Shown piece after piece: positions 9,285-46,763 of a stretch of 64,000 bases of DNA. The notes beneath the pieces were generated by a model that saw nothing but the letters and a program-made list of their open reading frames with translations, ran no database searches and was not told where the DNA came from. Each line of letters starts with the position of its first letter. Within the stretch, counting starts at the first letter, position 1. This DNA is from Rhodobacter xanthinilyticus (GTDB lineage Bacteria > Pseudomonadota > Alphaproteobacteria > Rhodobacterales > Rhodobacteraceae), in assembly GCF_001856665.1 (NCBI RefSeq), contig NZ_CP017781.1:2868001-2932000 (forward strand), read 5' to 3'. The position numbers and the translations under genes are program-made.

Positions 9285-9331
9285 GCGGGGCTCTGCCCCG
9301 CACCCCGGGATATTTGGGGCAAGATGAAAGG
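9285..9331 (-). repeat. Intergenic element, CCAAATATCC subtype, copy 1, with hairpin
   Basis: Minus-strand copy. It begins directly after the stop codon of the acetyltransferase gene (stop at 9334-9332), reads CTTTCATCTTG then CCCCAAATATCCCGGGG, and runs into a perfect hairpin GCGGGGC / GCCCCGC (9285-9301). It sits in the 91-base gap before rnr. See the other copies at 16962, 32684, 39941, 40027, 44517 and 46682. Confidence 0.85.
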
Positions 9332-9742
9332 TCAGAGCGGGCGGCGCATGTCGCGGTGCGGGATGCCGGCATCGTCATAGACGGGGCCGAAGGCGACAAA
9401 GCCGAGCTTTTCATAGAAGGGTATCGCCTGGAGCTGCGCGCCGAGTTGCGCCTCGGTGCAGCCCGCTTGGGCGAGGCGCGCGCAGCCTGCTTCGATCAGC
9501 GCCGCGCCGAGGCCGGTGCCGCGCGCGCGCCGCGCCACGCAGACCCGGCCGATCTTGCCCAGCGCGCCCTGGATGAAGAGCCGCGCGGTGCCGAGGGGGT
9601 CGGCGCCGTCGCGGGCGAGAAGATGCACCGCCGCGCTGTCGAGATCATCCCATTCCTCGGCCTCGGCGATGCCCTGTTCCTCGATGAACACCGCGCGGCG
9701 CAGCGCATGGCAGGCGGCGAGGTCTTGCGTCTCCTCGATCAT
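9332..9742 (-). CDS. GNAT-family N-acetyltransferase
   Basis: 136 residues, a single GNAT fold. The acetyl-CoA loop is [21 protein letters not shown], and the C-terminal [27 protein letters not shown] is characteristic of the ElaA/YjcF-like branch. The N-terminus [22 protein letters not shown] also fits that branch. The substrate is unknown. It overlaps the dapE stop by 4 bases, so it is the second gene of a dapE operon. A repeat element abuts its stop codon. Confidence 0.85.
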
Positions 9743-10887
9743 GCGAAGAACGCCCGAAGCGCGCGGGCATAGATCGCCTTGAGCTGGTGGATATGGGCGA
9801 TCTCGACGCGTTCATCGACCTTGTGCATGGTCTGGCCGACGAGGCCGAATTCGAGCACCGGGCAATGGTCCTTGACGAAGCGCGCGTCCGAGGTGCCGCC
9901 GGTGGTGGAGAGCTCGGGGCGCAGGCCGGTCTCGGCCTCGACGGCGGCGGCGACGAGCGCGACGAACGCGCCCGGCGGCGTGACGAAGCTCTCGCCCGAG
10001 ATTTCCGAGCGCAGCGTGAGCCGCACGCCGGTTTCGGCCTCGATCCGCGCCGCGAGCCCCTCGCCCCAGGCCACGAGCCCCGCGCCGCTATGGGCATCGT
10101 TGAAGCGGATATTGACCGTCGCCGTGGCCCGAGCCGGGATCACGTTATTGGCCGGGTTGGCGCAATCGATCGTGGTGATCTGCAGGCTCGAGGGCTCGAA
10201 ATGCGCGGTGCCCTGATCGAGCGGCGCAGCGGTCATCTCGCCCAGGAGCCGGGTGAGCGCATGGAGCGGGTTCTTCGCCCGGTGCGGATAGGCCGCGTGC
10301 CCCTGCACCCCCTCGGCCTCGATATAGAAGGTCATCGAGCCGCGCCGGCCGATCTTCATCATCTCGCCCATCCGCTCGGGGCAGGTCGGCTCGCCCACGA
10401 GACAGACCGACATCGCCTCGCCCTCGGCCGCCATCCAGTCGAGCAGCGCGCGCGTGCCGTCGCGGCCCGGGCCCTCTTCATCGCCGGTGATGGTCAGGAT
10501 CACCGCGCCCTCAGGCGGGGTCTCACGCACGAAATCCACCGCCGCCGCGACAAAGGCCGCCACGCCCGATTTCATGTCGCTCGCGCCGCGGCCCCAGATC
10601 TGGCCCTCGGCGATCTCGGCGCCGAACGGGTCGCGGCTCCAGGCGGCGACATCGCCCACCGGCACGACATCGGTATGGCCGTTGAAGCCGAAGCTGCGCG
10701 CGCCCTTCGCCCCCCAGCGCGCGAAGAGGTTGGGCACGCCGTTGCGATCGACCCGGGTGCAGGCGAACCCGGCCTCGCCCAGCACCCGCGCGAGAAGCTC
10801 GAGCGCGCCGCCCTCGACGGGCGTGACACTCGGGCAGCGGATCAGCGCGGCGGTCAGCGCGACCGGATCAATCGGGGCATGGGTCAT
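9739..10887 (-). CDS. dapE: Succinyl-diaminopimelate desuccinylase
   Basis: 382 residues from the ATG at 10887. It hydrolyses N-succinyl-LL-diaminopimelate to LL-diaminopimelate and succinate in lysine and peptidoglycan precursor synthesis. M20 metallopeptidase signatures are visible: [21 protein letters not shown], and the catalytic glutamate pair in [10 protein letters not shown]; the dimerisation segment contains [33 protein letters not shown] and [12 protein letters not shown] are DapE-type C-terminal features. The frame extends 35 codons upstream without family similarity, so the internal ATG is preferred. Followed by the acetyltransferase with a 4-base overlap. Confidence 0.95.
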
Positions 10888-11185
10888 CTGCGGCTCCTTG
10901 CGGCTTTCGCGCAGGATTAGCGCCCCCCGCGCCGCCCGTCGAGCCCCCTTCCCCGGCGTCAGGTGTTGCAGCCCGGTCACCGCCCGGCCCAAGCCCGTTT
11001 GTGGCGAAAATTTGTCTTTATTCTCAAGGGCGCCCCGGCTACTGTGGGGAAAATAACGTCCTGAGGCAGGGCAACACGAGCAGGGTCAACGCACCCACCC
11101 GGATTTGCGGGCCACCGGCCCGACACGAGCGCCCTCTTCGGGGGCGCCGGTCGTGATTGCGCTGCCTCCAACGCGGGAGGCGAGA
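10888..11185. other. Gap between dapE and the Hint-protein gene, with stacked hairpins
   Basis: 298 bases with no gene. Near the plus-strand gene it has two GC-rich hairpins in a row: CGGGCC-ACC-GGCCCG at about 11112-11126 and a GCGCCC / GGGCGC stem at about 11130-11147. They would be in the 5' leader of the gene at 11186. The AT-richer stretch at 11008-11058 is the best place for promoters. I cannot assign a -10/-35 pair with confidence. Confidence 0.45.
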
Positions 11186-12757
11186 ATGCCCTGGGCATCG
11201 GAGCTGAGCTACAACACGAGCGCTTCGGCGCTGCAGATGGCCAACACCATCTTCGGCGATGGCGTGACCGTGGTCGGCGCTTCCTACACCGGCGACGCGC
11301 GCTCCTCGGCGATCTATTCGCGCGGCGATGCGCTCTCGCCCGAGGCCACGCCCTCGAACACCGGGGTGATCCTCTCCACCGGCTATGCGACGAGCTTCAC
11401 CAATTCCTTTGGCGATGTGAACACCTCGACGAACACCTCGACCAACACCTCCGGCGTCAACAACAACGCCGATTTCAACGCGATCGCCGGCACCACCACC
11501 TATGACGCCGCCTGGCTCGATGTGGATTTCATCCCCACCGGCGACACGATGACCGTCTCCTTCACCTTCGCCTCGGAGGAATATCCCGAGTATATCAACT
11601 CGATCTACAACGATATCGTCGGCGTCTGGGTGAACGGGAGCTACGTCGAACTGGCCGCCGGCAACGGCAATACCTCGGTCATCAACGTCAACAGCCAGAA
11701 CAACGAAAACCTTTACATTTCAAACACCTCGGATAGCTACAACACCGAGATGGACGGCTTCACCGTGACCATGTCGCTGACCTTCCCGGTCAATGTCGGC
11801 GTGGTCAATTCGATCCGCATCGGCATCGCCGACACCTCGGATTCGAACTACGATTCGAACATCCTGATCGCGGGCGACAGCATCCAGACCGTGCTGATCG
11901 CCGCCGATGACGTGGCCAATGTCGCCCCGGGCGAGGCGCGCACGATCGACGTGCTCGCCAACGACCACAGCGGCACGAACGGCACGCTGACGATCACCCA
12001 TATCAACGGCGTCGCCGTTACCGCGGGCCAGACGGTGACGCTTGCCTCGGGCGAACAGGTCACCCTCAACCCCGATGGCACGCTCACGGTCCTCACCGAT
12101 GCCGAGGAAGAGACCGTCAACTTCACCTATGAAATCTCCGATGGCGCGGGCCATACCGATGTCGGTTTCGTCACCGTCAACGTGGTGCCCTGTTTCACCG
12201 CCGGCACCCGCATCGCCACCCCCGAGGGCCCCCGCGCCGTCGAGGATCTGCGCCCGGGCGATCTCGTCTTCACCCAGGACGACGGCGCGCAGCCGCTGCG
12301 CTGGGTCGGGCGGCACCGCGTCCGCGCGACGGGCGATTTCGCCCCGATCCGCATCGAGGCCGATACGTTTGGCCGACATGATGTGCTCACCGTCTCGCCC
12401 CAACACCGGATCTTGATGCGCGACGCGCTGGCGGAGCTGATGTTCGGCGAGGCCGAGGTGCTGGTCGCGGCCAAACATCTCGTCGATGGCGCCCGCGTGC
12501 GCGTCGTCGAGGGCGGCGAGGTCGAGTATTTCCACCTGCTCTTCGACCGCCATCAGGTGATCTTCTCCGAGGGGCTCGCGACCGAGAGCTTCCTGCCCGG
12601 GCCGCAGGTGCTGGGCGGGCTCGAGGCCGCCTGCCAGGCCGAAATCTGCGCGCTCTTCCCCGAGCTCGACCCGGCGACCGGCACGGGCTTCGCCCCCGCC
12701 GCGCGGCGGATGCTGAAGGGCTACGAGGCGCGCCTCTTGCGCGAGCGCGCGGCATGA
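11186..12757 (+). CDS. Exported-type protein: choice-of-anchor L, cadherin-like and Hint domains
   Basis: 523 residues from the ATG at 11186, with GGGAGG seven bases upstream. Residues about 10-220 resemble the choice-of-anchor L domain (ALQMANTIFGDGVTVVGASY, TFASEEYPEYINSIYNDIVG) and are rich in Asn, Ser and Thr. Residues about 228-333 are a bacterial cadherin/Ig-like repeat (ADDVANVAPGEARTIDVLAND). From C336 a Hint_2-type domain begins, CFTAGTRIATPEGPRAVEDL, with the downstream SPQHRIL block. Hint domains self-cleave through their first cysteine, so the N-terminal part may be released or attached to something. I see no Sec signal; type I secretion is likely (inference). Its stop overlaps the start of a second Hint gene. 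Confidence 0.8.
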   Translation: MPWASELSYNTSASALQMANTIFGDGVTVVGASYTGDARSSAIYSRGDALSPEATPSNTGVILSTGYATSFTNSFGDVNTSTNTSTNTSGVNNNADFNAIAGTTTYDAAWLDVDFIPTGDTMTVSFTFASEEYPEYINSIYNDIVGVWVNGSYVELAAGNGNTSVINVNSQNNENLYISNTSDSYNTEMDGFTVTMSLTFPVNVGVVNSIRIGIADTSDSNYDSNILIAGDSIQTVLIAADDVANVAPGEARTIDVLANDHSGTNGTLTITHINGVAVTAGQTVTLASGEQVTLNPDGTLTVLTDAEEETVNFTYEISDGAGHTDVGFVTVNVVPCFTAGTRIATPEGPRAVEDLRPGDLVFTQDDGAQPLRWVGRHRVRATGDFAPIRIEADTFGRHDVLTVSPQHRILMRDALAELMFGEAEVLVAAKHLVDGARVRVVEGGEVEYFHLLFDRHQVIFSEGLATESFLPGPQVLGGLEAACQAEICALFPELDPATGTGFAPAARRMLKGYEARLLRERAA

Positions 12758-13857
12758 GCGGCGCCCAACACGGCTGGTTCGCCGCCTATCTGCCCCATCA
12801 CGGCCGGGTCGAGTTCGATCAGGCGCGGGTGCCGGGCCAGCTCGCCCAGGGCAGCCTCTTGCTCGAATTCACCCTCACCCGTGGCGAAACCGGCCCGCTC
12901 GAACTCTTCGACCTCACCGCGCCGGGCGCGGGCGCCGACCGGCTCGCGCTCACCCTCGATCGCGAGGGGCTGATCCGCCTCGAGATCCGCCGCGGCGCGG
13001 CCTTCCATGCGCTCTCGATCGACGCCAGCGCCGATTGCGCCGAGGGCGGGCCGATGCGGCTGAGTTGGCGGTGGGATTGCATCGCGGGCGAGAGCCTTTT
13101 GACCCTCGAGGCGCTCGAGCGCGGCACGCTGCGCCAACGCGCCGCCCCCGCCCCCGTCGCGCTCGCCCGCGCCGATCTCGAGACGCTGGCCGAGGGCCGC
13201 GCGCCGGCGCGGATCGGGCCGCGGGTCGAATGGCTGGCGGTCGGCGCGCATCTGCATCCGGCGGGGCCCGCGGCCTGTTTCGCGCCCTCGACGCCGCTTC
13301 TGACGCCCACCGGCTGGCGCCCGGCGGGCAATCTGCGCGCGGGCGATCTCGTGGAGACGGTGGATGCGGGCGCGCAGCCGGTGCTCTGGTCGGGGCGGAT
13401 CGCGCTGCCCGCGCTCGGGCATCTGCGCCCGGTGCGGCTCTGCGCGCCGAGCTTCGGCGCGAGCCGCGATCTGTGGGTTCTGCCGCAGCACCGCATCGCG
13501 CTCTCGGGGCCCACGGTCGATTATCTCTTCGGCGAGGATGAGGTGCTCGTCGAGGCGCGCCACCTCGTCGACGGCTGCACCGCGCTGCAACCCGATCGCC
13601 CCAATGTGCTCGGCTGGCAGGGCGTTTTGCTCGAGGGCCATCACCTGCTGATCGCCGACGGCTGCCGCCTCGAAAGCCTGAACGCCGGCCGCCTCGCGCG
13701 CCAGCCCGCGCTCGCCGCGACGACCGCGCTCGCCGATCTCGCCGCGCTCGGCGCCCTGCCCGAGCACCGCAGCCCGGTGCGCCGCGTTCTGGAGGGGTTC
13801 GAGACCCGATCTCTCGCCGCCGCCCGCAGCCGCAGCCGAAGTCCGGTCGCCGCCTGA
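12754..13857 (+). CDS. Second Hint-domain protein with lectin-like N-terminus
   Basis: 367 residues, overlapping the previous gene by ATGA. Residues 1-170 look like a beta-sandwich of concanavalin type (LLLEFTLTRGETGPLELFDL, LRLSWRWDC-like strand pattern), a tentative reading. From C175 a Hint_2-type domain starts, CFAPSTPLLTPTGWRPAGNL, with LPQHRIALSG and a C-terminal LLEGHHLLIADG that matches LLFDRHQVIFSEG of its neighbour. No signal peptide. The two Hint domains are clearly related, so the pair probably arose by duplication of that module onto different N-terminal domains. Function unknown. Confidence 0.75.
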   Translation: MSGAQHGWFAAYLPHHGRVEFDQARVPGQLAQGSLLLEFTLTRGETGPLELFDLTAPGAGADRLALTLDREGLIRLEIRRGAAFHALSIDASADCAEGGPMRLSWRWDCIAGESLLTLEALERGTLRQRAAPAPVALARADLETLAEGRAPARIGPRVEWLAVGAHLHPAGPAACFAPSTPLLTPTGWRPAGNLRAGDLVETVDAGAQPVLWSGRIALPALGHLRPVRLCAPSFGASRDLWVLPQHRIALSGPTVDYLFGEDEVLVEARHLVDGCTALQPDRPNVLGWQGVLLEGHHLLIADGCRLESLNAGRLARQPALAATTALADLAALGALPEHRSPVRRVLEGFETRSLAAARSRSRSPVAA

Positions 13858-13968
13858 GTCAAACCGGCGCGACATATTCGGTCACATTTATACCACCGCG
13901 CGAATTTTTATTGCGCTGCGCCTGCGAAGGCCCTAAGCACGGGGCAACCGCAAGAAGGATACCGATTC

Positions 13969-15630
13969 ATGGCGCATGATGGGGCTCAAATGACCGACGT
14001 TCACATGACCGACCTGCTGGCTCTGACCGAAGCCGTGCTGCCCGAAGTGGCGAAACTGACCGATGACGCGACCGCCGCCTTGCGCGCGCGCGTGACGCGC
14101 GACGGCAAGGTTTCGGGCGCGGCGCTCGAGGAGCATCAATTCGCCGCCCATGCGCTCTCGTGGCTTGCGACCTACAACCAGTCGCTGATGCAGCTGCGCG
14201 GCTGGGCGGGCCGGGTGGCCGAGGCCGGCGCCTTCGGCCCGATGGAGAGCCTGATCCTGCAGATCGGCTTTGGCGAATACCTCAACCAGATCGCCGGCGG
14301 CATCCCGATGAGCCAGACCGAGGTCGCGCGCCTCGCCGATCTCGGCGTGAGCTGGGCGCCATCCACGGCGGCGCAAAAACTGATGGCCGAGGGCAACACC
14401 GCCGCCGCGCGGATGGCGCTCGTGGCCTGCATGCGCGACAATCAGGGCCGCGCGCTCTTTGGCGCCTCGGGCCTCGACGAAGATCTCGAGATGATCCGCG
14501 ACCAGTTCCACCGCTATGCCGAGGAACGCGTGATCCCGAACGCCCATGAATGGCACCTCAAGGACGAGCTGATCCCGATGGAGATCATCGAGGAGCTCGC
14601 CGAGCTGGGCGTCTTCGGCCTGACGATCCCCGAGGAATACGGCGGGCTCGGCCTCTCGAAAGCCTCGATGGTGGTGGTCACCGAAGAGCTCTCGCGCGGC
14701 TATATCGGCGTGGGCTCGCTCGGCACGCGCTCGGAGATCGCCGCCGAGCTGATCCTGTGCGGCGGCACCGAGGAGCAAAAAGCCAAATGGCTTCCGGGGC
14801 TTGCGAGCGGCGAGATCCTCTCGACCGCGGTCTTCACCGAGCCCAACACCGGCTCCGACCTCGGCAGCTTGCGCACCCGCGCGGTCAAGGACGGCGAGGA
14901 TTGGGTCGTGACCGGCAACAAGACCTGGATCACCCACGCCCAGCGCACCCATGTGATGACGCTGCTCGCGCGCACCGAGCCCGACACCACCGATTGGCGC
15001 GGCCTGTCGATGTTCCTGGCCGAAAAGACCCCGGGCACCGATGACAACCCCTTCCCGACGCCGGGCATGACCGGCGGCGAGATCGAGGTTCTCGGCTATC
15101 GCGGCATGAAGGAATATGAGCTCGGCTTCGACGGCTTCCGCATCAAGGGCGAGAACCTCCTGGGCGGCGAGACCGGCAAGGGCTTCAAACAGCTCATGGA
15201 AACCTTCGAATCGGCGCGCATCCAGACCGCCGCCCGCGCCGTCGGCGTGGCGCAGGCCGCCTGCGAGATCGGCATGCAATATGCCATCGACCGCAAGCAA
15301 TTCGGCAAATCGCTGATCGAATTCCCGCGCGTCGCCGGCAAGCTCGCGATGATGGCGGTCGAGATCATGATCGCGCGCCAGCTCACCTATTTCTCCGCCT
15401 GGGAGAAGGACCACGGCGAGCGCTGCGATGTCGAGGCGGGTATGGCGAAGCTGCTCGGCGCGCGCGTGGCCTGGTCGAGCGCGGATAACGCGCTGCAGAT
15501 CCACGGCGGCAACGGCTTCGCGCTCGAATATGCGATCTCGCGGATCCTGTGCGATGCGCGCATCCTCAACATCTTCGAGGGCGCGGCCGAGATCCAGGCG
15601 CAGGTGATCGCGCGCCGTCTGATCGGCTGA
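13969..15630 (+). CDS. mcd: (2S)-methylsuccinyl-CoA dehydrogenase
   Basis: 553 residues from the ATG at 13969, with AAGAAGGA eight bases upstream. It is an FAD-dependent acyl-CoA dehydrogenase with an N-terminal extension of about 150 residues (TDLLALTEAVLPEVAKLTDD), which separates methylsuccinyl-CoA dehydrogenase from ordinary 380-residue family members. Motifs include FTEPNTGSDLGSLRTRA, RAVGVAQAACEIGMQYAIDR, QIHGGNGFALEY and IFEGAAEIQAQVIARR. It oxidises (2S)-methylsuccinyl-CoA to mesaconyl-CoA in the ethylmalonyl-CoA pathway of acetate assimilation. It is alone here; the other pathway genes are not in the window. A strong terminator follows. Confidence 0.88.
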   Translation: MAHDGAQMTDVHMTDLLALTEAVLPEVAKLTDDATAALRARVTRDGKVSGAALEEHQFAAHALSWLATYNQSLMQLRGWAGRVAEAGAFGPMESLILQIGFGEYLNQIAGGIPMSQTEVARLADLGVSWAPSTAAQKLMAEGNTAAARMALVACMRDNQGRALFGASGLDEDLEMIRDQFHRYAEERVIPNAHEWHLKDELIPMEIIEELAELGVFGLTIPEEYGGLGLSKASMVVVTEELSRGYIGVGSLGTRSEIAAELILCGGTEEQKAKWLPGLASGEILSTAVFTEPNTGSDLGSLRTRAVKDGEDWVVTGNKTWITHAQRTHVMTLLARTEPDTTDWRGLSMFLAEKTPGTDDNPFPTPGMTGGEIEVLGYRGMKEYELGFDGFRIKGENLLGGETGKGFKQLMETFESARIQTAARAVGVAQAACEIGMQYAIDRKQFGKSLIEFPRVAGKLAMMAVEIMIARQLTYFSAWEKDHGERCDVEAGMAKLLGARVAWSSADNALQIHGGNGFALEYAISRILCDARILNIFEGAAEIQAQVIARRLIG

Positions 15631-15651
15631 GCGGGCTGAAATCTCCGGCAG

Positions 15652-15675
15652 CGGGGCCCTTTGGGGCCCCGTTTT
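15652..15675 (+). terminator. Intrinsic terminator of mcd
   Basis: Stem CGGGGCCC (15652-15659) / GGGCCCCG (15664-15671), loop TTTG, then TTTT. It lies 21 bases after the mcd stop. Confidence 0.9.
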
Positions 15676-15726
15676 GCATTGCGCCCGCGCGTGGTTCCGG
15701 CATTCTCGCGCGAAAAGGAGAGCCTG

Positions 15727-16230
15727 ATGATCCGCCCCGCGACCCCCGCCGACGCCCCCGCCTTGGCCGAGATCTATAACGCCGCCGTGCGCGAGACGAC
15801 CGCGATCTGGAACGACATCGAGGTCGATGCCGAAAACCGGCGGGCGTGGATGGCGGCGCGGGCCGAGGGGGGCTTTCCGGTGCTGGTCTGCGAGGAGGGC
15901 GGCGCGGTGCTCGGCTATGCGAGCTATGGGCCGTTTCGCGCCTTTGACGGCTATCGCGCGACGGTCGAACATTCGGTCTATGTGCGCAAGGGCGCGCAGG
16001 GCGGCGGGCGCGGGCGCGCGCTGATGGAGGCGCTGATCGCCGAGGCGCGCGCGCGCGGGGCGCATATCATGGTCGCGGCGATCGAGGCGGGGAATGCGGG
16101 CTCGATCGCGCTGCATGCGAGCCTCGGCTTCGAGCCGGTGGGGCGGATGCCCGAGGTCGGGCAGAAATTCGGCCGCTGGCTCGATCTCGCGCTGATGCAG
16201 CTGCGTCTGGATACCCGCGCTCAGCCCTGA
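15727..16230 (+). CDS. GNAT N-acetyltransferase, phosphinothricin/methionine sulfone type
   Basis: 167 residues from the ATG at 15727, with AAAGGAG upstream. [21 protein letters not shown] and [19 protein letters not shown] are typical of the PAT/MddA/YncA branch, which acetylates methionine sulfoximine, phosphinothricin and similar amino acid analogues. The acetyl-CoA loop is [18 protein letters not shown], and [21 protein letters not shown] is a branch signature. The native substrate is not certain. The 3' end overlaps the 3' end of recO by 10 bases (convergent). Confidence 0.85.
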
Positions 16231-16943: not shown

Positions 16944-16961
16944 GATGCGCTTGTGATCCGG

Positions 16962-17015
16962 CCGGGGGTTTTGCACCCCCGGACCCCCGCAGGATATTTG
17001 GTGCAAGATGAAAGG
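16962..17015 (-). repeat. Intergenic element, CCAAATATCC subtype, copy 2, with hairpin
   Basis: Minus-strand copy starting 5 bases after the DUF1491 stop (17021). It reads CCCTTTCATCTTG then CACCAAATATCCTGCGGGGG and ends in a perfect 7-bp hairpin, CCGGGGG (16962-16968) / CCCCCGG (16976-16982). The stretch from the hairpin through the ATATTT block is identical over about 35 bases to copy 4b near 40027. It lies between DUF1491 and recO on the same transcript. Confidence 0.85.
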
Positions 17016-17020
17016 GAAAG

Positions 17021-17359
17021 TCAGTCGGCGAGGCCGGCTTCGTCGAGCAGCGTGCGGCCTTCGCGGCTCTCCAGTTCGATCACCCAGAGGTCGGGGTCGA
17101 AGCCGCGCTGTTTGCGGATCGAGGCGTCGATCTCGGGCTCGGGGCCGTCATGGAGGATGAGCCATTGCCAGCCGCCGGTGATCAGATCGGAGCGGCGCTC
17201 GTAGAGCTGGGCGGTGCCGTCGAGGCGGGCGCATTTGACCATCACCGCGCCGCTGTCGGGTTGGCCGCGGGCGGCGATATAGGCGGGGATATTGGCCAGT
17301 TCGAGCCGTTTGAGATAGGCGCGCACCCAGAGCTCCGCCCGCAGGCGGGGCCCTGCCAT
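17021..17359 (-). CDS. DUF1491 family protein
   Basis: 112 residues. [40 protein letters not shown] and a C-terminal [11 protein letters not shown] match DUF1491, a small alphaproteobacterial family without known function. Its ATG overlaps the era stop (ATGA), which ties its translation to era and points to a role near ribosome or RNA maturation, though that is only context. No motif suggests catalysis. Confidence 0.85.
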
Positions 17360-20970: not shown

Positions 20971-21055
20971 GATTTTCTCCGGCAAATTCGGGCGGCACAT
21001 TTTGGGGCGATTATGCGCGAGCGCCCTGGCGGAGGGAAGGGTGGCGCGCGCCGGA

Positions 21056-21131
21056 TTTGCGTATTTGGACCAAGAAGAAACAGCGGGAAATGCGCTGAGA
21101 CAGCTGTTTCTTCTTGGCAAAAATACGCAAA
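21056..21131. repeat. Intergenic element, CCAAATACGC subtype, inverted pair A1
   Basis: Two 28-base arms face each other: 21056-21083 and 21104-21131. They match at 25 of 28 positions as inverted repeats and are separated by 20 bases. The plus-strand arm reads CTGTTTCTTCTTGG then CAAAAATACGCAAA. The pair could form a long RNA hairpin in either direction. It sits between DUF2062 and pdxJ, two genes on the same strand. Confidence 0.85.
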
Positions 21132-21156
21132 ACCTGCCGCAGCCAGAGGCGCGCGG

Positions 21157-25827: not shown

Positions 25828-25886
25828 TTGCGTATTTATCACCAAGAAGAAACAGCCCTCGCTTCTTCTTGGCCCAAATACGCAAA
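25828..25886. repeat. Intergenic element, CCAAATACGC subtype, inverted pair A2
   Basis: Arms 25828-25854 (minus-oriented) and 25861-25886 (plus-oriented, GCTTCTTCTTGG then CCCAAATACGCAAA) are imperfect inverted copies separated by only 6 bases. The same module as at 21056 and 36184. It lies between the NYN terminator and ispH, both plus-strand genes. Confidence 0.85.
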
Positions 25887-25961
25887 TGCGCCCGCGCAAC
25901 CCGCACTGGACGCGGGCAGGCGCGCGCATTAGGTCTGGTCCGGGCCGAACAGGAGACCGCC

Positions 25962-32683: not shown

Positions 32684-32799
32684 AGGGGCGCTGCCCCTCG
32701 GCCTGCGGCCTCACCCCGGGATATTTCGGCATCATTGACGCCAGACCTTCCCCTTCAATGATGTCCAAATATCCCGGGGGTGCGGGGGCTGGCCCCCGC
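32684..32799. repeat. Intergenic element, CCAAATATCC subtype, inverted pair 3a/3b with flanking hairpins
   Basis: The most symmetric copy. From left: hairpin AGGGGC-GCT-GCCCCT (32684-32698); minus-oriented element 32713-32738; 14-base spacer; plus-oriented element 32753-32780 (CTTCAATGATG then TCCAAATATCCCGGGGG); hairpin GCGGGGGC / GCCCCCGC (32782-32799). The element arms match over about 26 bases with few mismatches. It follows smc by a few bases and precedes a RidA gene on the same strand. Confidence 0.87.
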
Positions 32800-36167: not shown

Positions 36168-36236
36168 AAGGGGCGCACCCGCCCCTTCTTCTTGGCAAAA
36201 ATACGCAAAATCCCCCGCCGCCCAAGCGCGCGGGGG
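36168..36236 (+). repeat. Intergenic element, CCAAATACGC subtype, single copy A3, fused to a terminator
   Basis: Right after mscS a stem AAGGGGCG (36168-36175) / CGCCCCTT (36180-36187) runs into TTCTTCTTGG and CAAAAATACGCAAAA (to 36210), then a CCCCCG / CGGGGG hairpin (36212-36217 / 36231-36236). The T-rich start of the element serves as the U-tract of the first stem. It separates the convergent mscS and peroxiredoxin genes. Confidence 0.85.
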
Positions 36237-39211: not shown

Positions 39212-39214
39212 GCG

Positions 39215-39934: not shown

Positions 39935-39940
39935 CTGATC

Positions 39941-39987
39941 GTTTCAACGATGTCGAAATATCCCGGGGGGCCGAGGCCTGCCTCGGC
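39941..39987 (+). repeat. Intergenic element, CCAAATATCC subtype, copy 4a
   Basis: Plus-oriented, 7 bases after the hydrolase stop: GTTTCAACGATGTCG then AAATATCCCGGGG, followed by the hairpin CCGAGG-CCTG-CCTCGG (39971-39986) and further GC-rich inverted sequence. It faces copy 4b across the gap to map. Confidence 0.82.
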
Positions 39988-40026
39988 GGGGCAGCGCCCC
40001 CTCCAAACCTCTCACAAATGGAAAGC

Positions 40027-40080
40027 CCGGGGGTTTTGCACCCCCGGACCCCCGCAGGATATTTTCACATCATTGAAGGG
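40027..40080 (-). repeat. Intergenic element, CCAAATATCC subtype, copy 4b
   Basis: Minus-oriented, starting 4 bases after the map stop: CCCTTCAATGATGTG then AAAATATCCTGCGGGGG, then the perfect hairpin CCGGGGG / CCCCCGG (40027-40047). The hairpin plus core is identical over about 35 bases to copy 2 at 16962, 23 kb away. Confidence 0.82.
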
Positions 40081-40084
40081 CAGA

Positions 40085-40894
40085 TCAGCCCCAGGTCGGG
40101 TGGAACCGGTTCGCGGGCGAGAGCGTGAAGATCTCGCAGCCATCCGCCGTCACCCCGATCGAATGTTCGAACTGCGCCGAGAGCGATTTGTCGCGCGTCA
40201 CCGCGGTCCAGTCATCGGCGAGCACCTTGGTCTCGGGACGGCCGAGGTTGACCATCGGCTCGATGGTGAAGAACATGCCTTCCTCGAGCACCGCGCCCGA
40301 GCCCGCGCGCCCGTAATGGAGCACATTCGGCGGGGCGTGGAACACGCGCCCGAGCCCGTGGCCGCAGAAATCGCGCACCACCGACATCCGGTGCCCCTCG
40401 ACGAATTGCTGGATCGCATGGCCGATATCGCCGAAGGTATTGCCCGGGCGGACCTGTTCGATGCCGATCATCAGCGCGTCATGGGTGACCTGGATCAGCC
40501 GCTCGGCCTTGCGGCTGAGGTTGCCCGCGACATACATCCGCGAGCTGTCGCCATACCAGCCATCGAGGATCACGGTCACGTCGATGTTCAGAATATCGCC
40601 GTCTTTCAACACCTTGTCGCCCGGGATCCCGTGGCAGACGACGTGATTGACCGAGATGCAGGAGGCGTGTTTATAGCCGCGATAGCCGATCGTGGCGGAT
40701 TTCGTGCCGAGCTCGGTGACGCGGTTGCGGATGAAATCATCCAACGCGCCGGTGGTCACGCCGGGCTCGACGAGGGGGGCCACCTCGTCGAGGATGCGCG
40801 CCGCGACATGGCCGGCCGCTTGCATCCCCTCGAAATCGGCTTGTTCATAGATCCGGATGCCATCTTTGGTGACCCGGCCGCGGGCTTCGTCCAC
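40085..40894 (-). CDS. map: Methionine aminopeptidase, type I
   Basis: 269 residues from a GTG at 40894, with AGGAGA upstream. Metal ligands are in DILNIDVTVILDGWYGDSSRM, GHGLGRVFHAPP, FFTIEPMV and QFEHSIGV. It removes the initiator methionine from nascent proteins. Convergent with the hydrolase gene, with a repeat element on each tail. Confidence 0.95.
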   Translation of the reverse strand: MDEARGRVTKDGIRIYEQADFEGMQAAGHVAARILDEVAPLVEPGVTTGALDDFIRNRVTELGTKSATIGYRGYKHASCISVNHVVCHGIPGDKVLKDGDILNIDVTVILDGWYGDSSRMYVAGNLSRKAERLIQVTHDALMIGIEQVRPGNTFGDIGHAIQQFVEGHRMSVVRDFCGHGLGRVFHAPPNVLHYGRAGSGAVLEEGMFFTIEPMVNLGRPETKVLADDWTAVTRDKSLSAQFEHSIGVTADGCEIFTLSPANRFHPTWG

Positions 40895-41009
40895 TGGTCT
40901 TCTCCTGTCCTGACTTGGGCTCTAGATAGTCACAAAAGCGCCGCTTGGCCAGAGCCGGGCTTTTCCGAGCCTGCAAGCGGGCTTATACCTTGGCGCAAAG
41001 GAGGCCCAG

Positions 41010-41738
41010 ATGCCCAATCCGACAGCTGCGATCCTGATCATCGGCGATGAGATCCTGACCGGGCGCACCCGCGAGGGCAACGCCCATTTCCTCGCCGGCG
41101 AGCTCGCCCGCGCGGGGATAGACCTGCGCCAGATCCGGGTGATCGGCGATGATCATGCCACCATCAGCGCCGCGGTGCGCGAGCTTGCGGGCGGGCATGA
41201 CCAGCTCTTCACCTCGGGCGGGATCGGCCCGACCCATGACGACATCACCGCCGATGCGGTCGCCGCGGCCTTTGGCCGGGCGATCGATGTGCGCGAGGAT
41301 GCGCGCGCGATTTTGGCCGCGCATTACGCCGCGCGGGGGGTGGAGTTCACGCCCGCGCGGATGCGGATGGCGCGGATCCCCGAGGGCGCGGCGCTGATCG
41401 ACAACCCGGTCTCCGGCGCGCCGGGGTTCTCGGTGGAGAATTGTCATGTGATGGCGGGGGTGCCCAATATCTTTCAGGCGATGGTGACGGGGCTCTTGCC
41501 GCGCCTCACGGGGGGCGCGCCGCTTGAGAGCCGCACCTGGCAGCTGATGGTCGCCGAAGCCGCGATCGCCGATCAGCTCGGCGCGCTGGCCGCCGCCCAC
41601 CCGGGCGTCTCGATGGGCTCCTATCCCTTTGTGACCGAAGGGCAATACGGCACCAACCTGGTCGTGCGCGCGACCGACCCGGTCGCGCTCGCGGCGGCGT
41701 TTGCGGCGCTGCAAGCGGCTTTCCCGGAGGGCAAATGA
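41010..41738 (+). CDS. CinA N-terminal / molybdopterin-binding domain protein
   Basis: 242 residues. MPNPTAAILIIGDEILTGRTREGN and LFTSGGIGPTHDDITADAVA are the MoCF_biosynth fold seen in the N-terminal half of CinA. The C-terminal nicotinamide-nucleotide amidase domain of full CinA is absent. Such stand-alone proteins are thought to bind or hydrolyse ADP-ribose or nucleotide substrates; the exact reaction is unknown. It overlaps the next gene by 4 bases. Confidence 0.85.
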   Translation: MPNPTAAILIIGDEILTGRTREGNAHFLAGELARAGIDLRQIRVIGDDHATISAAVRELAGGHDQLFTSGGIGPTHDDITADAVAAAFGRAIDVREDARAILAAHYAARGVEFTPARMRMARIPEGAALIDNPVSGAPGFSVENCHVMAGVPNIFQAMVTGLLPRLTGGAPLESRTWQLMVAEAAIADQLGALAAAHPGVSMGSYPFVTEGQYGTNLVVRATDPVALAAAFAALQAAFPEGK

Positions 41739-42478
41739 GCTCGGTCGCGCCGCTTTCCCTGCCCGAGGCTTTCGCGCTGATCGATGCGACCTGGCCCGCG
41801 GCGGCGGTGCATCAGCTCGGGCCTTTCACGCTGCGCGAGGGGCGCGGCGCGGGCTCGCGGGTGAGCTCGGCCTCGCTCGAGGCGCCCTATACGCAGGCCG
41901 ATCTCGAGGCGGTGATCGCGGCGCACCGCGCGCTGGGGCAGGTGCCGAAGTTCCAGATCCGCCCCGGGCTGCCGGGCAATGACGCGCTCGACGCGGATCT
42001 TGCCGCGCGCGGCTATGAGGTCGCCGACGCGACGGTGATCCATACCGCGCCGGTCGAGACGCTCGCGGGCGAGGTGCCGCCGGTGACGGCCTTTGCGCAT
42101 TGGCCGCCGCTCGCGATCGCGCGCGAGCTGTGGGAGAGCGCGGGCATCGGGGCCGCGCGGCAGGCGGTGATGGCGCGCGCGGCGGGGCCGAAAGCCTGTG
42201 TGCTCGGCCGCAAGCAGGACCGCGCGGCGGGGGCGATGTTTATCGGCCTTTCGGGGGAACGCGCGATGATCCATGCGCTCGTCGTGCTGCCCGAGGTGCG
42301 CCGGCTTGGCCTTGCGCGCGCGATGATCCATGAGGGCGCGCGCTGGGCCGCGGAGGCGGGCGCGCGGGAAATCGCGCTTGTCGTCACCCGCGCCAACGCC
42401 GGCGCCAATGCGCTCTACCTCTCGATGGGCATGGTCGAGGCCGGCGGCTACCATTATCGCCGCGAGGCAAACCCATGA
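41735..42478 (+). CDS. GNAT-family N-acetyltransferase
   Basis: 247 residues. The C-terminal half has the acetyl-CoA site LPEVRRLGLARAMIHEGARWA and a terminal LVVTRANAGANALYLSMGMVEAGGYHYR. The N-terminal half is a degenerate GNAT-like region (REGRGAGSRVSSASLE). The substrate is unknown. It is translationally coupled on both sides. Confidence 0.82.
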   Translation: MSSVAPLSLPEAFALIDATWPAAAVHQLGPFTLREGRGAGSRVSSASLEAPYTQADLEAVIAAHRALGQVPKFQIRPGLPGNDALDADLAARGYEVADATVIHTAPVETLAGEVPPVTAFAHWPPLAIARELWESAGIGAARQAVMARAAGPKACVLGRKQDRAAGAMFIGLSGERAMIHALVVLPEVRRLGLARAMIHEGARWAAEAGAREIALVVTRANAGANALYLSMGMVEAGGYHYRREANP

Positions 42479-43413
42479 AATCGTTGATCTTTGCGGCCCC
42501 TCTGTGGCTTGCCTCGGCGGCCATGCTCGCCGCCGGGCCGTTTGTGCCCGAGCTGCCCCAAGGCGCGATGGTCAGCGCGCAGGCCTCGAACCCGGCGACG
42601 AGCCTCGCGCTGGCGACCGGCCCCTGGCGCCCCGAGGGGGCCGAGCGGCGGATGCTCGAAGGGGCGCGCAGCGATACCGCCTGGCGGCTGCGGGCCAATC
42701 AGATGACCACGCTCCAGCTCCTCGCGAGCCTGCGCCAGCAGATCGCCGCGGAGGGCTATTCGATCCTTTATGAATGTGAGACCGATGCCTGTGGCGGCTT
42801 CGATTTCCGCTATGCGCTCGATCTCTTGCCCGAGCCGCAGATGCATGTCGACCTCGCCGATTTCCGCTATCTCGCGGCGAGGAAGGGCGCGGATTACCTT
42901 GCGCTGACGGTGTCGCGCTCGTCCGAATCGGGGTTCATCCACCTGACCGAGATGACCGCGCAGGCGATCACCACCGCCGAGCCGGAAAACCCGCTCACCC
43001 CCACCCAGCCGACGCCGACCGAGGCGCCCAAGGAGGGGATCGGCGCGACGCTGGAAACCGCCGGGCGCGCGGTGCTCGAGGATCTGGCCTTTGAAAGCGG
43101 CAAATCGGCGCTCGAGGGGGAGGATTTCCCCTCGCTCGCGGCGCTTGCGGATTATCTCTCGACCCGCCCCGAGGCGCGGGTGACGCTCGTCGGCCATACC
43201 GATGCGGTGGGGGCGCTGGGGCCCAATGTCGCGATCTCGAAGGCGCGGGCCGAGGCGGTGCGGGCGCGGCTGATCGAGCGCTATGGGGTTTCGGCCAAAC
43301 AGCTCACCGCCGAGGGCGCGGGCTGGCTCGCGCCGCGCGCCACCAATCTCACCGAAGAGGGGCGCACCCAAAACAGACGGGTCGAGGCGGTTCTCACCTC
43401 GACCCGGAGTTGA
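42475..43413 (+). CDS. OmpA-like peptidoglycan-associated protein
   Basis: 312 residues. An N-terminal signal peptide (KSLIFAAPLWLASAAMLAAG) leads to a domain of unknown type (about 25-165), a Pro/Thr-rich linker (PENPLTPTQPTPTEAP) and an OmpA C-terminal domain from about 195, with LVGHTDAVGALGPNVAISKARAEAVR and TEEGRTQNRRVE. It probably binds peptidoglycan in the periplasm, tethered to the outer membrane or soluble. It is coupled to the acetyltransferase by ATGA. Confidence 0.88.
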   Translation: MKSLIFAAPLWLASAAMLAAGPFVPELPQGAMVSAQASNPATSLALATGPWRPEGAERRMLEGARSDTAWRLRANQMTTLQLLASLRQQIAAEGYSILYECETDACGGFDFRYALDLLPEPQMHVDLADFRYLAARKGADYLALTVSRSSESGFIHLTEMTAQAITTAEPENPLTPTQPTPTEAPKEGIGATLETAGRAVLEDLAFESGKSALEGEDFPSLAALADYLSTRPEARVTLVGHTDAVGALGPNVAISKARAEAVRARLIERYGVSAKQLTAEGAGWLAPRATNLTEEGRTQNRRVEAVLTSTRS

Positions 43414-43455
43414 CGGCGCCGACGGAAAGCGCCGCGGGAAAACATCGGTCTGGCG

Positions 43456-44361
43456 TCACCAGTTGTCGGGGCCCTTGTCGGCGAAGGTCTGCGCGAGGAA
43501 ATCGATGAAGGCGCGCACCTTCGGCTGGGTGAAGCGCCCGGGCGGGTAGACCGCGTAAATGCCGAGCGTTTCCATCGGCAGCTCGGGCATGGCCTCCTCC
43601 ACCAGCCCCTTCTTCATCGCATCGGCGTAGAGGAAGGAGGGCAGATAGGCGATGCCGAGACCGGCGATGCAGGCATGGAGCAGCGACTGGCCGTCGTTGA
43701 CGGTCAGCCAGCCGTTCGAGCGGACCTGGCGACGCTCGCCCGAGGGGGCGGTGATCTTCCACAGGTTGCCGTTCGACTGGTTGGAATAATGCAGGAGCTT
43801 GTGATCGTTGAGATCGTCGATCTTCTGCGGGCGGCCGTATTTCTCGAAATAGGCGGGGGCGGCGATCATCCGGCGGGCGGTTTCGGTGAGCTTGCGGGCG
43901 CGCAGGCTGGAATCCTCGAGCTCTCCCACCCGGATCGCCATGTCGAAGCCCTCGGAGATCAGCTCGACATAGCGGTTGTTGAGCACCATGTTGACGGTAA
44001 TCTCGGGATATTCCTGCAAGAAGTCGCCCAGGACCGGCGAGAGCAGGTTGACGCCGAAATCGGTCGCGACCGAGATCCGCAAGAGCCCCGAGGGCGCGAC
44101 CTGCATCGCGGTGACGAGCGCATCGGCCTCACCCGCATCGTTGAGCACGCGCCGGGCGCGGTCGTAATAGGCGAGGCCGATCTCGGTGGGCGAGACGCGC
44201 CGCGTGGTGCGGTTCAAGAGCCGCGCGCCGAGCCGCGCCTCGAGCGCCGAGACATGTTTCGAGACGGCGGATTTCGAGATCCCCATCTTCTTGGCGGCAT
44301 CGGTGAAGCCACCCTGATCCACGACGGTGGCGAAGGCTTCCATTTCGGTCAGGCGATCCAT
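43456..44361 (-). CDS. LysR-family transcriptional regulator
   Basis: 301 residues from the ATG at 44361. The N-terminal helix-turn-helix is MDRLTEMEAFATVVDQGGFTD with SKSAVSKHVSALEARLGARLL. A substrate-binding domain follows from about residue 90 and resembles the DhcR/AaeR-like group of LysR proteins. The ligand is unknown. It is divergent from the dienoyl-CoA reductase gene, a normal arrangement for a regulator and its target, but the gap is 298 bases and holds a repeat. Convergent with ompA. Confidence 0.9.
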   Translation of the reverse strand: MDRLTEMEAFATVVDQGGFTDAAKKMGISKSAVSKHVSALEARLGARLLNRTTRRVSPTEIGLAYYDRARRVLNDAGEADALVTAMQVAPSGLLRISVATDFGVNLLSPVLGDFLQEYPEITVNMVLNNRYVELISEGFDMAIRVGELEDSSLRARKLTETARRMIAAPAYFEKYGRPQKIDDLNDHKLLHYSNQSNGNLWKITAPSGERRQVRSNGWLTVNDGQSLLHACIAGLGIAYLPSFLYADAMKKGLVEEAMPELPMETLGIYAVYPPGRFTQPKVRAFIDFLAQTFADKGPDNW

Positions 44362-44659
44362 TGTGCACCTATCGGGAACGTTTCTCGTTTCAACAAGGTA
44401 TCGGAGCGGAATCGGGCGCAAATGGGGCCTCGCAGGGACAATACCGGGGAAATTGCGCGTCTGGTCCGGGGCGGGAAACGATTGTTCGCGCGCAGGCGCC
44501 GGTTGCAAGGGGCGGAGGGGGCGCTGCCCCCGCGGCTGCGCCGCCCCCCGGGATATTTCGGCATCGTTGAAGGCGGGGGCGGTTTACAATGACGCGGCGT
44601 CTGGCGTGACATCGGCTTCCGTGCACGTCAATTTGGCGCGAGCCAAGGGAGGGAGACCG
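44362..44659. promoter_or_regulatory. Divergent region between LysR gene and fadH
   Basis: 298 bases. Near the LysR gene is a region without long repeats. Positions 44517-44573 hold a repeat element with two GC hairpins, described separately. GGGAGGGAGACC just before 44660 is the fadH ribosome site. No promoter is clear. Confidence 0.5.
44517..44573 (-). repeat. Intergenic element, CCAAATATCC subtype, copy 5
   Basis: Minus-oriented: CTTCAACGATGCCG then AAATATCCCGGGGGG (to 44545), then GCGGC / GCCGC and GGGGGC-GCT-GCCCCC hairpins (44517-44531). Unlike the other copies it is in a divergent region, upstream of both neighbours, so it is not behind an existing gene. Confidence 0.83.
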
Positions 44660-46672
44660 ATGAGCCAATTTCCGCATATGCTGGCGCCGCTCGATCTGGG
44701 GCATGTGGTGCTCAAGAACCGCGTGTTGATGGGGTCGATGCACACCAATCTCGAGGAGACCGGGGATTGGAACCGGGTGGCGGAGTTCTACGCGACGCGC
44801 GCGCGGGGGGGCGTCGGGCTGATGGTGACGGGGGGCATGGCGCCGAACCTCGAGGGCGGCGTGTTTCCGGGGGCGGCGGGGCTTTTCACCGCGCAGGACA
44901 TCGCCAACCACCGGATGATCACCGAGCGGGTGCATGAGGCGGGCGGGCGGATCGCGATGCAGATCCTGCATGCGGGGCGCTATGCTTATAGCCCGGACTG
45001 TGTCTCAGCCTCGGCGGTGAAATCGCCGATCTCGCCCTTTGCGCCGCGCGAACTCGACGAGGACGGGATCGAGAAGCAGATCGCCGATATCGTAACGGCC
45101 GCCGTGCGGGCGCGCGAGGCGGGGTATGACGGGGTCGAGGTGATGGGCTCGGAGGGCTATTTCCTCAACCAGTTCCTCGTGCGCCATACCAACAAGCGCG
45201 AGGATCGCTGGGGCGGGCCGTATGAGAACCGGATGCGGCTGCCGGTCGAGGTGGTGCGGCGCGTGCGCGCTGCCGTCGGCCCTGATTTCATCGTCATCTA
45301 CCGGATTTCGCTCATCGATCTCGTGCCCGATGGTTCGAGCTGGGAGGAGGTCGTCCAGCTTGCGCGCGCGATCGAGGCGGCGGGGGCGACGATGCTCAAC
45401 ACCGGCATCGGCTGGCATGAGGCGCGGGTGCCCACGATCGCCACCTCGGTGCCGCGCGCGGCGTTCACCTGGCTGACGGCGCGGCTGCGCCCCGAGGTCT
45501 TGATCCCGGTGATCACCTCGAACCGGATCAACACGCCCGCGGTGGCCGAAGACATCCTCGCGCGGGGCGATGCCGATATGGTGTCGCTCGCGCGCCCCTT
45601 CCTCGCCGACCCCGATTTCGTGGCCAAGGCCGCCGCGGGCCGCGCCGATGAGATCGCGCCCTGCATCGCCTGCAACCAGGCCTGCCTCGACCACACCTTC
45701 TCAGGCAAGATCTCGACCTGCCTCGTCAACCCGCGCGCGGCCTTCGAGACCGAGCTGACCCTCGCCCCGACCGCCCAGCCCAAGACCATCGCCGTCGTCG
45801 GCGCCGGGCCCGCGGGCGTCTCGGCGGCGATCACCGCGGCCGGGCGCGGCCATGCGGTCACCCTCTTCGACCGCGCGACGGAGGTCGGCGGCCAGCTCCT
45901 GATGGCGCGCAAAGTGCCCGGCAAGGAGGAGTTCTACGGCCTCACCGACTGGTTCGCGACGATGCTCGCGCGCACCGGCGTCACGCTGCGGCTGGGCGAA
46001 GAGGCCAACGTGGCGAGCCTCGCCGCCTTCGACGAAGTGGTGATCGCGACCGGCGTCACCCCGCGCGACCCCGAGATCCCCGGCCAGGAACGCGCCGCGA
46101 GCTATATCGACATCCTCACCGGCAAGGTCACCGCCGGGCCGCGCGTGGCGGTCGTGGGCGCGGGCGGCATCGGCTTCGACGTGGCCGAATTCCTCACCGT
46201 CACGGCGAGCCCGACCCTCGATCTGGCCGACTGGAAACGCGAATGGGGCGTCGGCGACCCGGCCGAGACCCCCGGTGGCCTCGCCCGCCCCGCCCCCGAG
46301 GCCCCGGCACGCAGCGTCACGCTCTTGCAACGCAAACCCGAGAAACCGGGCCGCAAACTCGGCAAGACCACCGGCTGGATCCACCGCGCGGCCCTCCAGG
46401 CCAAGGGCGTGAAAATGCTCGGCGGGGTGAATTACGAGCGCATCACCGCCGACGGGCTCGAGATCTCCTTCGGCCCCGAGCGCAAGGACCCCACCCTGAT
46501 CGCCGCCGATACGGTCGTGCTCTGCGCGGGCCAACTCTCCGAGCGCTCCCTCGCCGATCAGCTGATCGCGACCGGCCTCACCCCCCATATCATCGGCGGC
46601 GCCGATGTCGCGGGCGAGCTCGACGCCAAACGCGCGATCGACCAGGGCACCCGCCTCGGCGCAAGCCTCTGA
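44660..46672 (+). CDS. fadH: NADPH-dependent 2,4-dienoyl-CoA reductase
   Basis: 670 residues from the ATG at 44660. An N-terminal FMN-binding OYE-type barrel (LDLGHVVLKNRVLMGSMHTN) is followed by a 4Fe-4S motif C-x2-C-x3-C-x11-C in CIACNQACLDH, then FAD (VVGAGPAGVSAAITAAGRGH) and NADPH (VAVVGAGGIGFDVAEFL) sites. It reduces 2,4-dienoyl-CoA during beta-oxidation of unsaturated fatty acids. Related trimethylamine dehydrogenase-like flavoproteins have the same domains, but SMHTNLEE and the overall length point to FadH. Confidence 0.92.
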   Translation: MSQFPHMLAPLDLGHVVLKNRVLMGSMHTNLEETGDWNRVAEFYATRARGGVGLMVTGGMAPNLEGGVFPGAAGLFTAQDIANHRMITERVHEAGGRIAMQILHAGRYAYSPDCVSASAVKSPISPFAPRELDEDGIEKQIADIVTAAVRAREAGYDGVEVMGSEGYFLNQFLVRHTNKREDRWGGPYENRMRLPVEVVRRVRAAVGPDFIVIYRISLIDLVPDGSSWEEVVQLARAIEAAGATMLNTGIGWHEARVPTIATSVPRAAFTWLTARLRPEVLIPVITSNRINTPAVAEDILARGDADMVSLARPFLADPDFVAKAAAGRADEIAPCIACNQACLDHTFSGKISTCLVNPRAAFETELTLAPTAQPKTIAVVGAGPAGVSAAITAAGRGHAVTLFDRATEVGGQLLMARKVPGKEEFYGLTDWFATMLARTGVTLRLGEEANVASLAAFDEVVIATGVTPRDPEIPGQERAASYIDILTGKVTAGPRVAVVGAGGIGFDVAEFLTVTASPTLDLADWKREWGVGDPAETPGGLARPAPEAPARSVTLLQRKPEKPGRKLGKTTGWIHRAALQAKGVKMLGGVNYERITADGLEISFGPERKDPTLIAADTVVLCAGQLSERSLADQLIATGLTPHIIGGADVAGELDAKRAIDQGTRLGASL

Positions 46673-46681
46673 CGCAAAAGA

Positions 46682-46763
46682 AAAGGGCGGTCCCCCCGCC
46701 CTTTCATCTTGCCCTAAATATCCCGGGGTGAGCGGCCCTCGGGCCGCGAGGGGCGGCGCCCCT
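46682..46763 (+). repeat. Intergenic element, CCAAATATCC subtype, copy 6, fused to fadH terminator
   Basis: A stem AAAGGGCGG (46682-46690) / CCGCCCTTT (46696-46704) starts 9 bases after the fadH stop. Its 3' strand is the beginning of the element CTTTCATCTTG, then CCCTAAATATCCCGGGG. Hairpins GCGGCCC / GGGCCGC (46732-46747) and AGGGGC-GGC-GCCCCT (46749-46763) follow. It lies between convergent genes. Confidence 0.85.

Follow-up and report, generated by a model that had tools for sequence, protein, structure and literature searches.

Why does one short sequence unit recur in gap after gap between the genes of a bacterium? This question is raised by a 64,000-nucleotide stretch of the Rhodobacter xanthinilyticus genome (contig NZ_CP017781.1, positions 2,868,001 to 2,932,000; hereafter the window), in which a preliminary description made from the letters alone had pointed out eight intergenic units with a lead, a core, and a GC-rich hairpin in constant order. 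All eight are present where that description had placed them, and we found them to belong to a large family of gene-end elements. New here are the arrangement of most units of this genome as head-to-head pairs with complementary arms and the genome-specific dialects of these arms. We tentatively propose that the element forms transcript 3′ ends irrespective of its orientation and weigh this proposal against several rival explanations; the overall interpretation of the preliminary description is partly supported.

Abundance and anatomy of the unit

The exact core AAATATCCYGSGG has 197 copies in the genome of R. xanthinilyticus compared with a single one for the reversed pattern, and a pattern of arm plus core (classes A and C, see below) has 266 compared with none. 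Units of arm and core scoring at least 14 bits numbered 60 in the first 464 kb (0 in reversed sequence), and 157 arm-plus-core units were counted in 864 kb (0 in the same DNA reversed), which scales with the whole-genome counts to around 310–400 units per genome. Densities in the larger, 864-kb sample are inflated because 40 stretches of this genome had been placed with the list of core hits in view; these stretches and the window cover 23% of the genome and contain 99 of the 197 exact cores. As a correction we used a fixed-step sample of 20 stretches, some overlapping earlier ones, that is itself somewhat rich (32 exact cores versus 20.8 expected). Genes were called with our own simple caller, so that start sites are rough. 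Searches with a covariance model (R1) listed 5 matches here and, among 121 genomes, 3 matches in 2 of them; only 150 of 2877 and 47 of 2765 candidates in the genome of R. xanthinilyticus were scored, with rough E-values, and the model was not used for counts.

Within the window, position weight matrices for three arm classes gave a total of 12 units, i.e., the eight described before and four of class C (21054, 21108, 25863, and 36186) with the arm TTCTTCTTGG and the core AAATACGC. Exact AAATATCCCGGG occurs six times in the window, and the remaining two of the previously noted copies are CCTGCG variants at 16988 and 40053. The core alone, with 3 mismatches allowed, is not enriched in the window (34 matches versus 35.3 expected), as an origin by chance or through base composition would have it, but this explanation is refuted by the reversed controls (0–1 versus 157–266) and is left with a vanishingly small probability. 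The hundreds of copies predicted by the preliminary description were thus found, and they lie mostly at gene ends.

Read 5′ to 3′, a unit comprises an arm of 10 nt, a free spacer of 3 nt, an AAATA core, and then a hairpin built from a first G-run (G1), an insert, a second G-run (G2), a loop of 4–7 nt, and a C-run. The arms fall into class A (TTCATCTTGC), class B (TTCAAYGATG), and class C (TTCTTCTTGG), and the core is mostly followed by TCC or, in class C, by CGC instead. Most class A and B units have the hairpin part, and class C units often lack the G/C runs. The insert consists either of 3 bases (TCC in 13 and TGC in 5 of 53 units) or, mostly, of a self-complementary, variable stretch of up to 23 nt. 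Arm words are scarce outside the elements: In the 864 kb, 63 of 68 class A, 46 of 52 class B, and 41 of 44 class C words precede three bases and AAATA, and the reversed words occur 0, 0, and 1 times, respectively.

In 43 of 53 units, G1 and G2 are equally long (the mean of 10,000 shuffles was 23.5 and their maximum 35), a count that excludes 7 of 60 units for which the script gave no such G-run with terminal hairpin (six with another hairpin type, one of class C). Equal lengths are compatible with a C-run that pairs with either G-run or with a class I intrastrand triplex (G-G-C; PMC4666352), and homopolymer runs are unable to separate alternative pairing from triplex. The element might act at the level of DNA, with G1, G2, and C forming an intrastrand G·G-C triplex or with arm and core serving as a protein site, and block polymerases or mark convergent borders. 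We consider this quite improbable: The order reverse-Hoogsteen G, G, C is indeed that of class I in PMC4666352, but the runs of mostly 4–6 nt only reach or miss the 6-nt minimum used for the search described there, the inserts are up to 23 nt long compared with its 6-nt loops, and class C units often have no such runs. Furthermore, alternative pairing of the C-run accounts equally well for the equal lengths, and the loop between arms is too variable in length for a fixed dimer site.

Head-to-head pairs and placement at gene ends

In the 864-kb sample, 104 of the 157 units form 52 head-to-head pairs with facing arms and 5 further pairs lie tail-to-tail; the 57 units of the fixed-step sample include 21 head-to-head pairs and one tail-to-tail pair. 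Two facing units make a palindrome of roughly 130–150 bp with a long stem that is interrupted by a 3×3 internal loop. Both halves have the same arm class in 48 of the 52 pairs (20,000 shuffles: mean 17.4, maximum 33). When the 52 pairs were aligned, standard base pairs filled 98.3% of the structure cells compared with 81.9% after shuffling, and 99 cells had changed on both sides compared with 33.9. In this alignment, the five outermost pairs (TATTT with AAATA) are invariant and hence uninformative. The three spacer columns show no complementarity (42.9% versus 50.2% shuffled). Because copying of whole palindromes would make the spacers match too, it seems to be the pairing of the arms itself that is kept, and selection on arm pairing is strongly indicated. 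Folded as RNA and compared with shuffles, four head-to-head pairs reached z-scores of -10.4, -7.8, -6.5, and -4.3, and one tail-to-tail pair reached -5.9.

Units avoid genes and gather at gene ends. None of the 57 units in the fixed-step sample lies inside a gene. A unit was present in 12 of the 59 convergent gaps, in 19 of the 264 co-directional ones, and in 4 of the 58 divergent ones; relative to total gap length, these were 21 units per 6.6 kb, 30 per 22.3 kb, and 6 per 12.6 kb, respectively. The larger, inflated sample has units in 45 of 130 convergent, 46 of 571 co-directional, and 8 of 125 divergent gaps, with 2 of 157 units within called genes, and in 35 of its 46 co-directional gaps the conserved part is closer to the upstream stop. 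The gene-end placement asserted by the preliminary description is therefore borne out, but its statement that most copies are oriented with the gene that they follow is not: In co-directional gaps, 33 units lie with and 36 against the gene in the larger sample (14 and 16 in the fixed-step sample).

Placement is similar beyond this genome. Four annotated Rhodobacterales plasmid records have units in two convergent and two co-directional gaps (six matches in all, two of them lacking annotation). Ten other genera of the order contributed 40 regions from 17 genomes, picked for the core regardless of context; their 44 cores comprised 23 in convergent, 19 in co-directional, and 0 in divergent gaps as well as 2 within called genes. 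These are mostly single units, with a facing arm in 5 of the 44.

The units of the window are listed in Table 1. One of them, at 44517–44571, breaks the general rule in that it lies in a divergent gap, possibly because a small gene was missed. The class A unit at 46703 has a GC hairpin directly upstream and, by inspection, its arm could act as the T-rich tail of this hairpin on the + strand.

Table 1. Units of the repeat family in the 64-kb window (positions from the first letter of the window).
Position	Strand	Unit	Context
9285..9328	-	Single unit, class A (TTCATCTTGC), core AAATATCCCGGGG, 4-G/4-C hairpin	After - gene ending 9332
16962..17012	-	Single unit, class A by sequence (matrix score said C), core AAATATCCTGCGGGGG, TCC-type hairpin	After - gene ending 17021
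21054..21079	-	Class C (TTCTTCTTGG, AAATACGC); half-unit to the left in a head-to-head pair, GC hairpin not seen	
21108..21133	+	Class C half-unit, head-to-head with 21054..21079 (to its left), arms complementary	
25863..25888	+	Class C unit	Co-directional gap
32685..32739	-	Class B unit (GTCAATGATG), on the left of a head-to-head pair	After + gene ending 32678
32754..32797	+	Class B unit (TTCAATGATG), head-to-head with 32685..32739 (to its left); pair RNA fold z -4.33	
36186..36211	+	Class C unit, arm fused to GC hairpin (AAAAAGGGGCGCACCCGCCCCTTCTTCTTGG)	Convergent gap
39943..40001	+	Class B unit (TTCAACGATG), tail-to-tail with unit 40025..40077	Convergent gap
40025..40077	-	Class B unit (TTCAATGATG), TCC-type hairpin	3′ end of gene 40085-40894
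44517..44571	-	Class B single unit	Called divergent gap 44362-44659
46703..46762	+	Class A unit	Convergent gap; GC hairpin directly upstream (46681-46705, - strand)

Orthologous sites, arm dialects, and distribution

In Rhodobacter, units are often retained at a given gene end even as their parts diverge. The gene at 40085–40894 carries the element at its 3′ end in 10 of 16 relatives, in either orientation; damaged copies occur in G578, G579, and G580. Seven relatives share one convergent neighbor at this gene: Five of them have the element, and two (G024 and G581) have a GC hairpin with a T-rich tail. In the remaining relatives, the gap is short, holds a different hairpin, or is arranged differently. 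The gap at 46673–46772, with both flanking genes orthologous, contains the element in 9 of 11 relatives (damaged in G578 and G580, of class C without hairpin in G588), and G590 and G586 have a terminator-like hairpin with a short T-rich stretch instead. Conversely, the convergent gap at 43414–43455 is free of the element here and in 15 of 15 relatives. Many of these 15 have kept a dyad of the CGGCGCC...GGCGCCG type without T tail in this gap, perhaps another kind of terminator.

All 7 relatives examined have kept a unit that lies elsewhere in the genome (L018:10806–10888), with position and orientation unchanged and with arms of four kinds. This unit is a candidate for differential expression inside an operon.

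Each genome uses only few arm words. Across twelve genomes, with that of R. xanthinilyticus left out, arms agreed at no fewer than 9 of 10 positions in 25% of the comparisons within genomes versus 4.5% between genomes. At six orthologous sites with a facing pair in at least three species, arm complementarity averaged 8.0 of 10 within species (23 pairs) versus 6.0 across species (72 combinations); these figures are unfiltered, and retaining only arm matches of at least 7 of 10 had given 9.0 versus 6.6. Both arms thus mostly change together and in place towards the genome-wide dialect, with exceptions. Near-identical copies also occur at unrelated sites (97% over 65 nt), which together with the genome-specific dialects supports spread or homogenization within genomes. 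The preliminary description had argued for a selected RNA or a spreading element, and both halves of this claim have gained ground: selection through arm covariation next to unmatched spacers, mostly coordinated arm change, and retention at orthologous ends, and spread through the near-identical copies and the dialects.

Of the 390 genomes of the order, 298 have at least one exact core, as do 120 of the 139 genera (reversed controls: 0–2). Counts range from 0 to 197 between related genomes, the genome of R. xanthinilyticus having the highest of all 390. In G579, 3 of 24 convergent gaps inspected contain units of this family or variants. Several convergent gaps of G579 (L077:2460, L079:6778, L092:8022, and L093:18262) carry a different repeat family with GGCGGAGAAGGAAA...TTTCC...CCGCCC-type arms and a long GC palindrome.

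A class-wide search with the arm-specific pattern found it in 0 of 187 genomes outside the family and in neither of two genomes of the same family. The core alone occurs in 1–5 copies in 47 of these 187 genomes and is absent from 140. Among 12 such regions with 13 cores, full units are clear in G534, G402, and G536, and the rest are chance-like or unclear. In G534 and G402, AT-richer genomes of one other alphaproteobacterial family, the GC-rich unit sits within regions of 38–47% GC, and G534 (L321, around 2342–2405) has a head-to-head pair with AT-rich complementary arms in a co-directional gap; full units also occur in one genome of a third family. A bias towards gene ends is not apparent among these few copies; the G402 cores (regions L324 and L327) lie one each in a convergent gap, a divergent gap, a co-directional gap, a called gene, and at an edge. 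Horizontal spread or deep ancestry could explain these units.

Two strict patterns run against viral sequences matched 0 and 1 contigs, and we rejected a phage element as origin on these grounds. The sole contig, with the class C pattern, has it at L216:12487–12507.

Many of these observations could also be expected of a selfish palindromic repeat similar to REP sequences or miniature inverted-repeat transposable elements (MITEs) that copies itself and persists after genes where it does little harm, its structure serving mobility rather than the host. It agrees with the random orientation of the units, their absence from most genes, and their lower density per kb in divergent gaps, and also with core numbers between 0 and 197 in related genomes, near-identical copies at unrelated sites, genome dialects, the damaged copies in G578, G579, and G580, and the GC-rich unit (once as a head-to-head pair) in regions of 38–47% GC in another family. 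This main rival nevertheless appears somewhat unlikely to us, given that the genome encodes no Y1 transposase, that one unit has stayed in place in all 7 relatives, its orientation unchanged and its arm differing, that the element and canonical terminators partially exclude each other (see below), and that viral carriage is almost nil with the two strict patterns.

Proposed role in transcript 3′-end formation and comparison with known systems

Gene-end placement, strong stems, exchange with terminator-like hairpins, and the lower number of canonical terminators in gaps with the element point to a role in the formation of transcript 3′ ends. We infer, with a probability of roughly 0.48, that the element is an orientation-tolerant 3′-end former, i.e., a terminator and/or an exonuclease barrier, that is homogenized within genomes. 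RNA polymerase arriving from either direction would encounter the arm hairpin or a GC hairpin with (GG)AUAUUU behind it; the transcript end would then be set by termination and/or by a hairpin that halts 3′–5′ exonucleases, and one palindrome could serve both convergent genes. Conversion or duplication would keep copies alike within a genome and thereby produce genome-specific arm dialects, with the core and the hairpin plan persisting.

Among convergent gaps of at least 25 nt in the enriched sample, a canonical terminator outside the element was found in 14 of 45 gaps with a unit versus 31 of 41 without (p = 4e-5); the fixed-step sample gave 5 of 12 versus 19 of 24 (p = 0.058). Mutual exclusion of element and canonical terminator is therefore partial. 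Some copies pass a fold-based terminator scan, and AUAUUU follows the hairpin in one orientation. In a few single units (46703, 36186, and L069 near 14957), inspection showed the arm directly after a GC hairpin as its possible T-rich tail.

A considerable number of observations weigh against this proposal. Regarding the terminator itself, the T tract (AUAUUU) is poor and often apart from the stem, and a simple terminator scan of 30–48 kb listed 10 sites (8.5 expected) with no element hairpin among them, three being versions of the hairpin beside 46703. Moreover, the E. coli BoxC/PIT triplex repeat reportedly has no terminator activity (PMC4666352). Element and canonical terminator coexist in the 14 gaps counted above, and a unit at L018:18096 adjoins a canonical terminator that occurs without the unit in all 6 relatives. 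Orientation is random in co-directional gaps, and 4 of 58 divergent gaps of the fixed-step sample have units as well. At orthologous sites, the convergent neighbor beyond the gene at 40085 varies between species, and some ends have neither element nor terminator (G591 with 23 nt and G584 with 9 nt at gene 40085; G582 and G583 with 18 nt in a further comparison of relatives), so that the element is dispensable there. Coordinated arm change has its exceptions too, since 5 of 23 orthologous pairs match at 6 or fewer positions: four mixed pairs in relatives and one pair of R. xanthinilyticus read one base out of register. Finally, the conserved unit at L018:10806 folds no better than shuffles (z 0.08; the only single unit among six sequences folded in all) and occupies a co-directional gap of 71–83 nt just before the AGGAG of the next gene, where full termination would be awkward.

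Classic intercistronic hairpins of the puf type protect the upstream RNA product, and the element could work similarly as an mRNA processing or stability element, with the AU-rich core as an endonuclease site (for RNase E, or for RNase III on the long stem of a pair) and the GC hairpin protecting the upstream product. The position of the L018:10806 unit just before AGGAG in this genome and seven relatives and the long stem of pairs with its 3×3 internal loop are in line with such a function, as is the AU enrichment of RNase E sites in Rhodobacter sphaeroides (around 7,000 of 23,000 clustered sites; PMC6238624). We nonetheless find it improbable because random orientation would place the core ahead of the hairpin half the time.

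If the element does form 3′ ends, a good share of convergent borders in unit-rich Rhodobacter would be made by one sequence-defined element (12 of 36 gaps of at least 25 nt in the fixed-step sample), and operon and 3′-end annotation of a much-studied group would need revision given that a simple terminator scan misses it. Since RNA-end methods have been published for R. sphaeroides (PMC6238624 and PMC7866481), this claim is directly testable. The arm dialects, with pairing kept and the core nearly frozen, moreover constitute a natural experiment on the concerted change of hundreds of dispersed copies. A more far-reaching idea, which we regard as unlikely, is that core and hairpin are a conserved signal for a dedicated trans-acting factor of alphaproteobacteria, either 3′-end-forming or mobilizing, and that the arm is a species-specific second part evolving genome-wide with that factor. 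Gene-end elements would then come in dialects and form a system distinct from REP, BoxC, and ordinary terminators.

Comparison with Rfam (the window against 4227 families) gave no match of the element at gathering score, and full-text searches of open-licence literature returned no description of it, though one may exist elsewhere. The only Rfam match in the window was a serC leader RNA (RF00517, 57331–57382 on the + strand, 72.3 bits) ahead of a + gene called at 57470. As to MITEs, no clean empty site with target duplication was readable by eye at orthologous sites, and the pairs are palindromic.

Repetitive extragenic palindromes (REPs) and their mosaic combinations (BIMEs), associated with REP-associated tyrosine transposases (RAYTs), resemble the element as short, GC-rich, intergenic palindromes in hundreds of copies that occur singly or in inverted pairs and have genome-specific variants. 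They differ in that our element has an invariant AAATA core and a separate pairing arm. A REP head has the sequence GT(A/G)G (PMC2817692), and inspection of the unit consensus revealed no such head next to the palindrome. The RAYT-type transposase suggested in the preliminary description did not materialize: The Y1_Tnp domain (PF01797) has 0 matches in this genome and is found in 17 of 149 genomes of the order, of which three have many exact cores (G020 with 84, G076 with 23, and G123 with 28) and the others 0–12. We therefore rejected RAYT origin as a general cause, as Y1_Tnp is missing here and genomes encoding it are mostly poor in cores.

DNA uptake sequences are short words known from genera such as Neisseria and Haemophilus. 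Like our element, they can lie at gene ends as inverted pairs, which form terminators (PMC1852404), and dialects of the uptake word are known for Neisseriaceae (PMC3630211). The present element differs as a unit of 40–60 nt with its own hairpin, and the likeness is confined to paired words and dialects.

The triplex repeats BoxC, PIT, and TMECO are GC-rich like our element, also combine two equal G-runs with one C-run, and vary in copy number between related strains. BoxC has the order C-G-G with 9-nt stems and showed no link to gene orientation (PMC4666352); the present element has the order G-G-C with runs of mostly 4–6 nt, an additional arm and core, and a preference for convergent gaps. 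Compared by eye, its units do not follow the BoxC pattern CCCTCNCCC-GGGNGAGGG-GGGNGAGGG given there.

Bidirectional intrinsic (Rho-independent) terminators, lastly, share the location of hairpins after convergent stop codons, and terminator-like hairpins replace the element in some relatives. What sets our element apart from them is a weak, interrupted U tract combined with a sequence-specific core that is conserved across genera.

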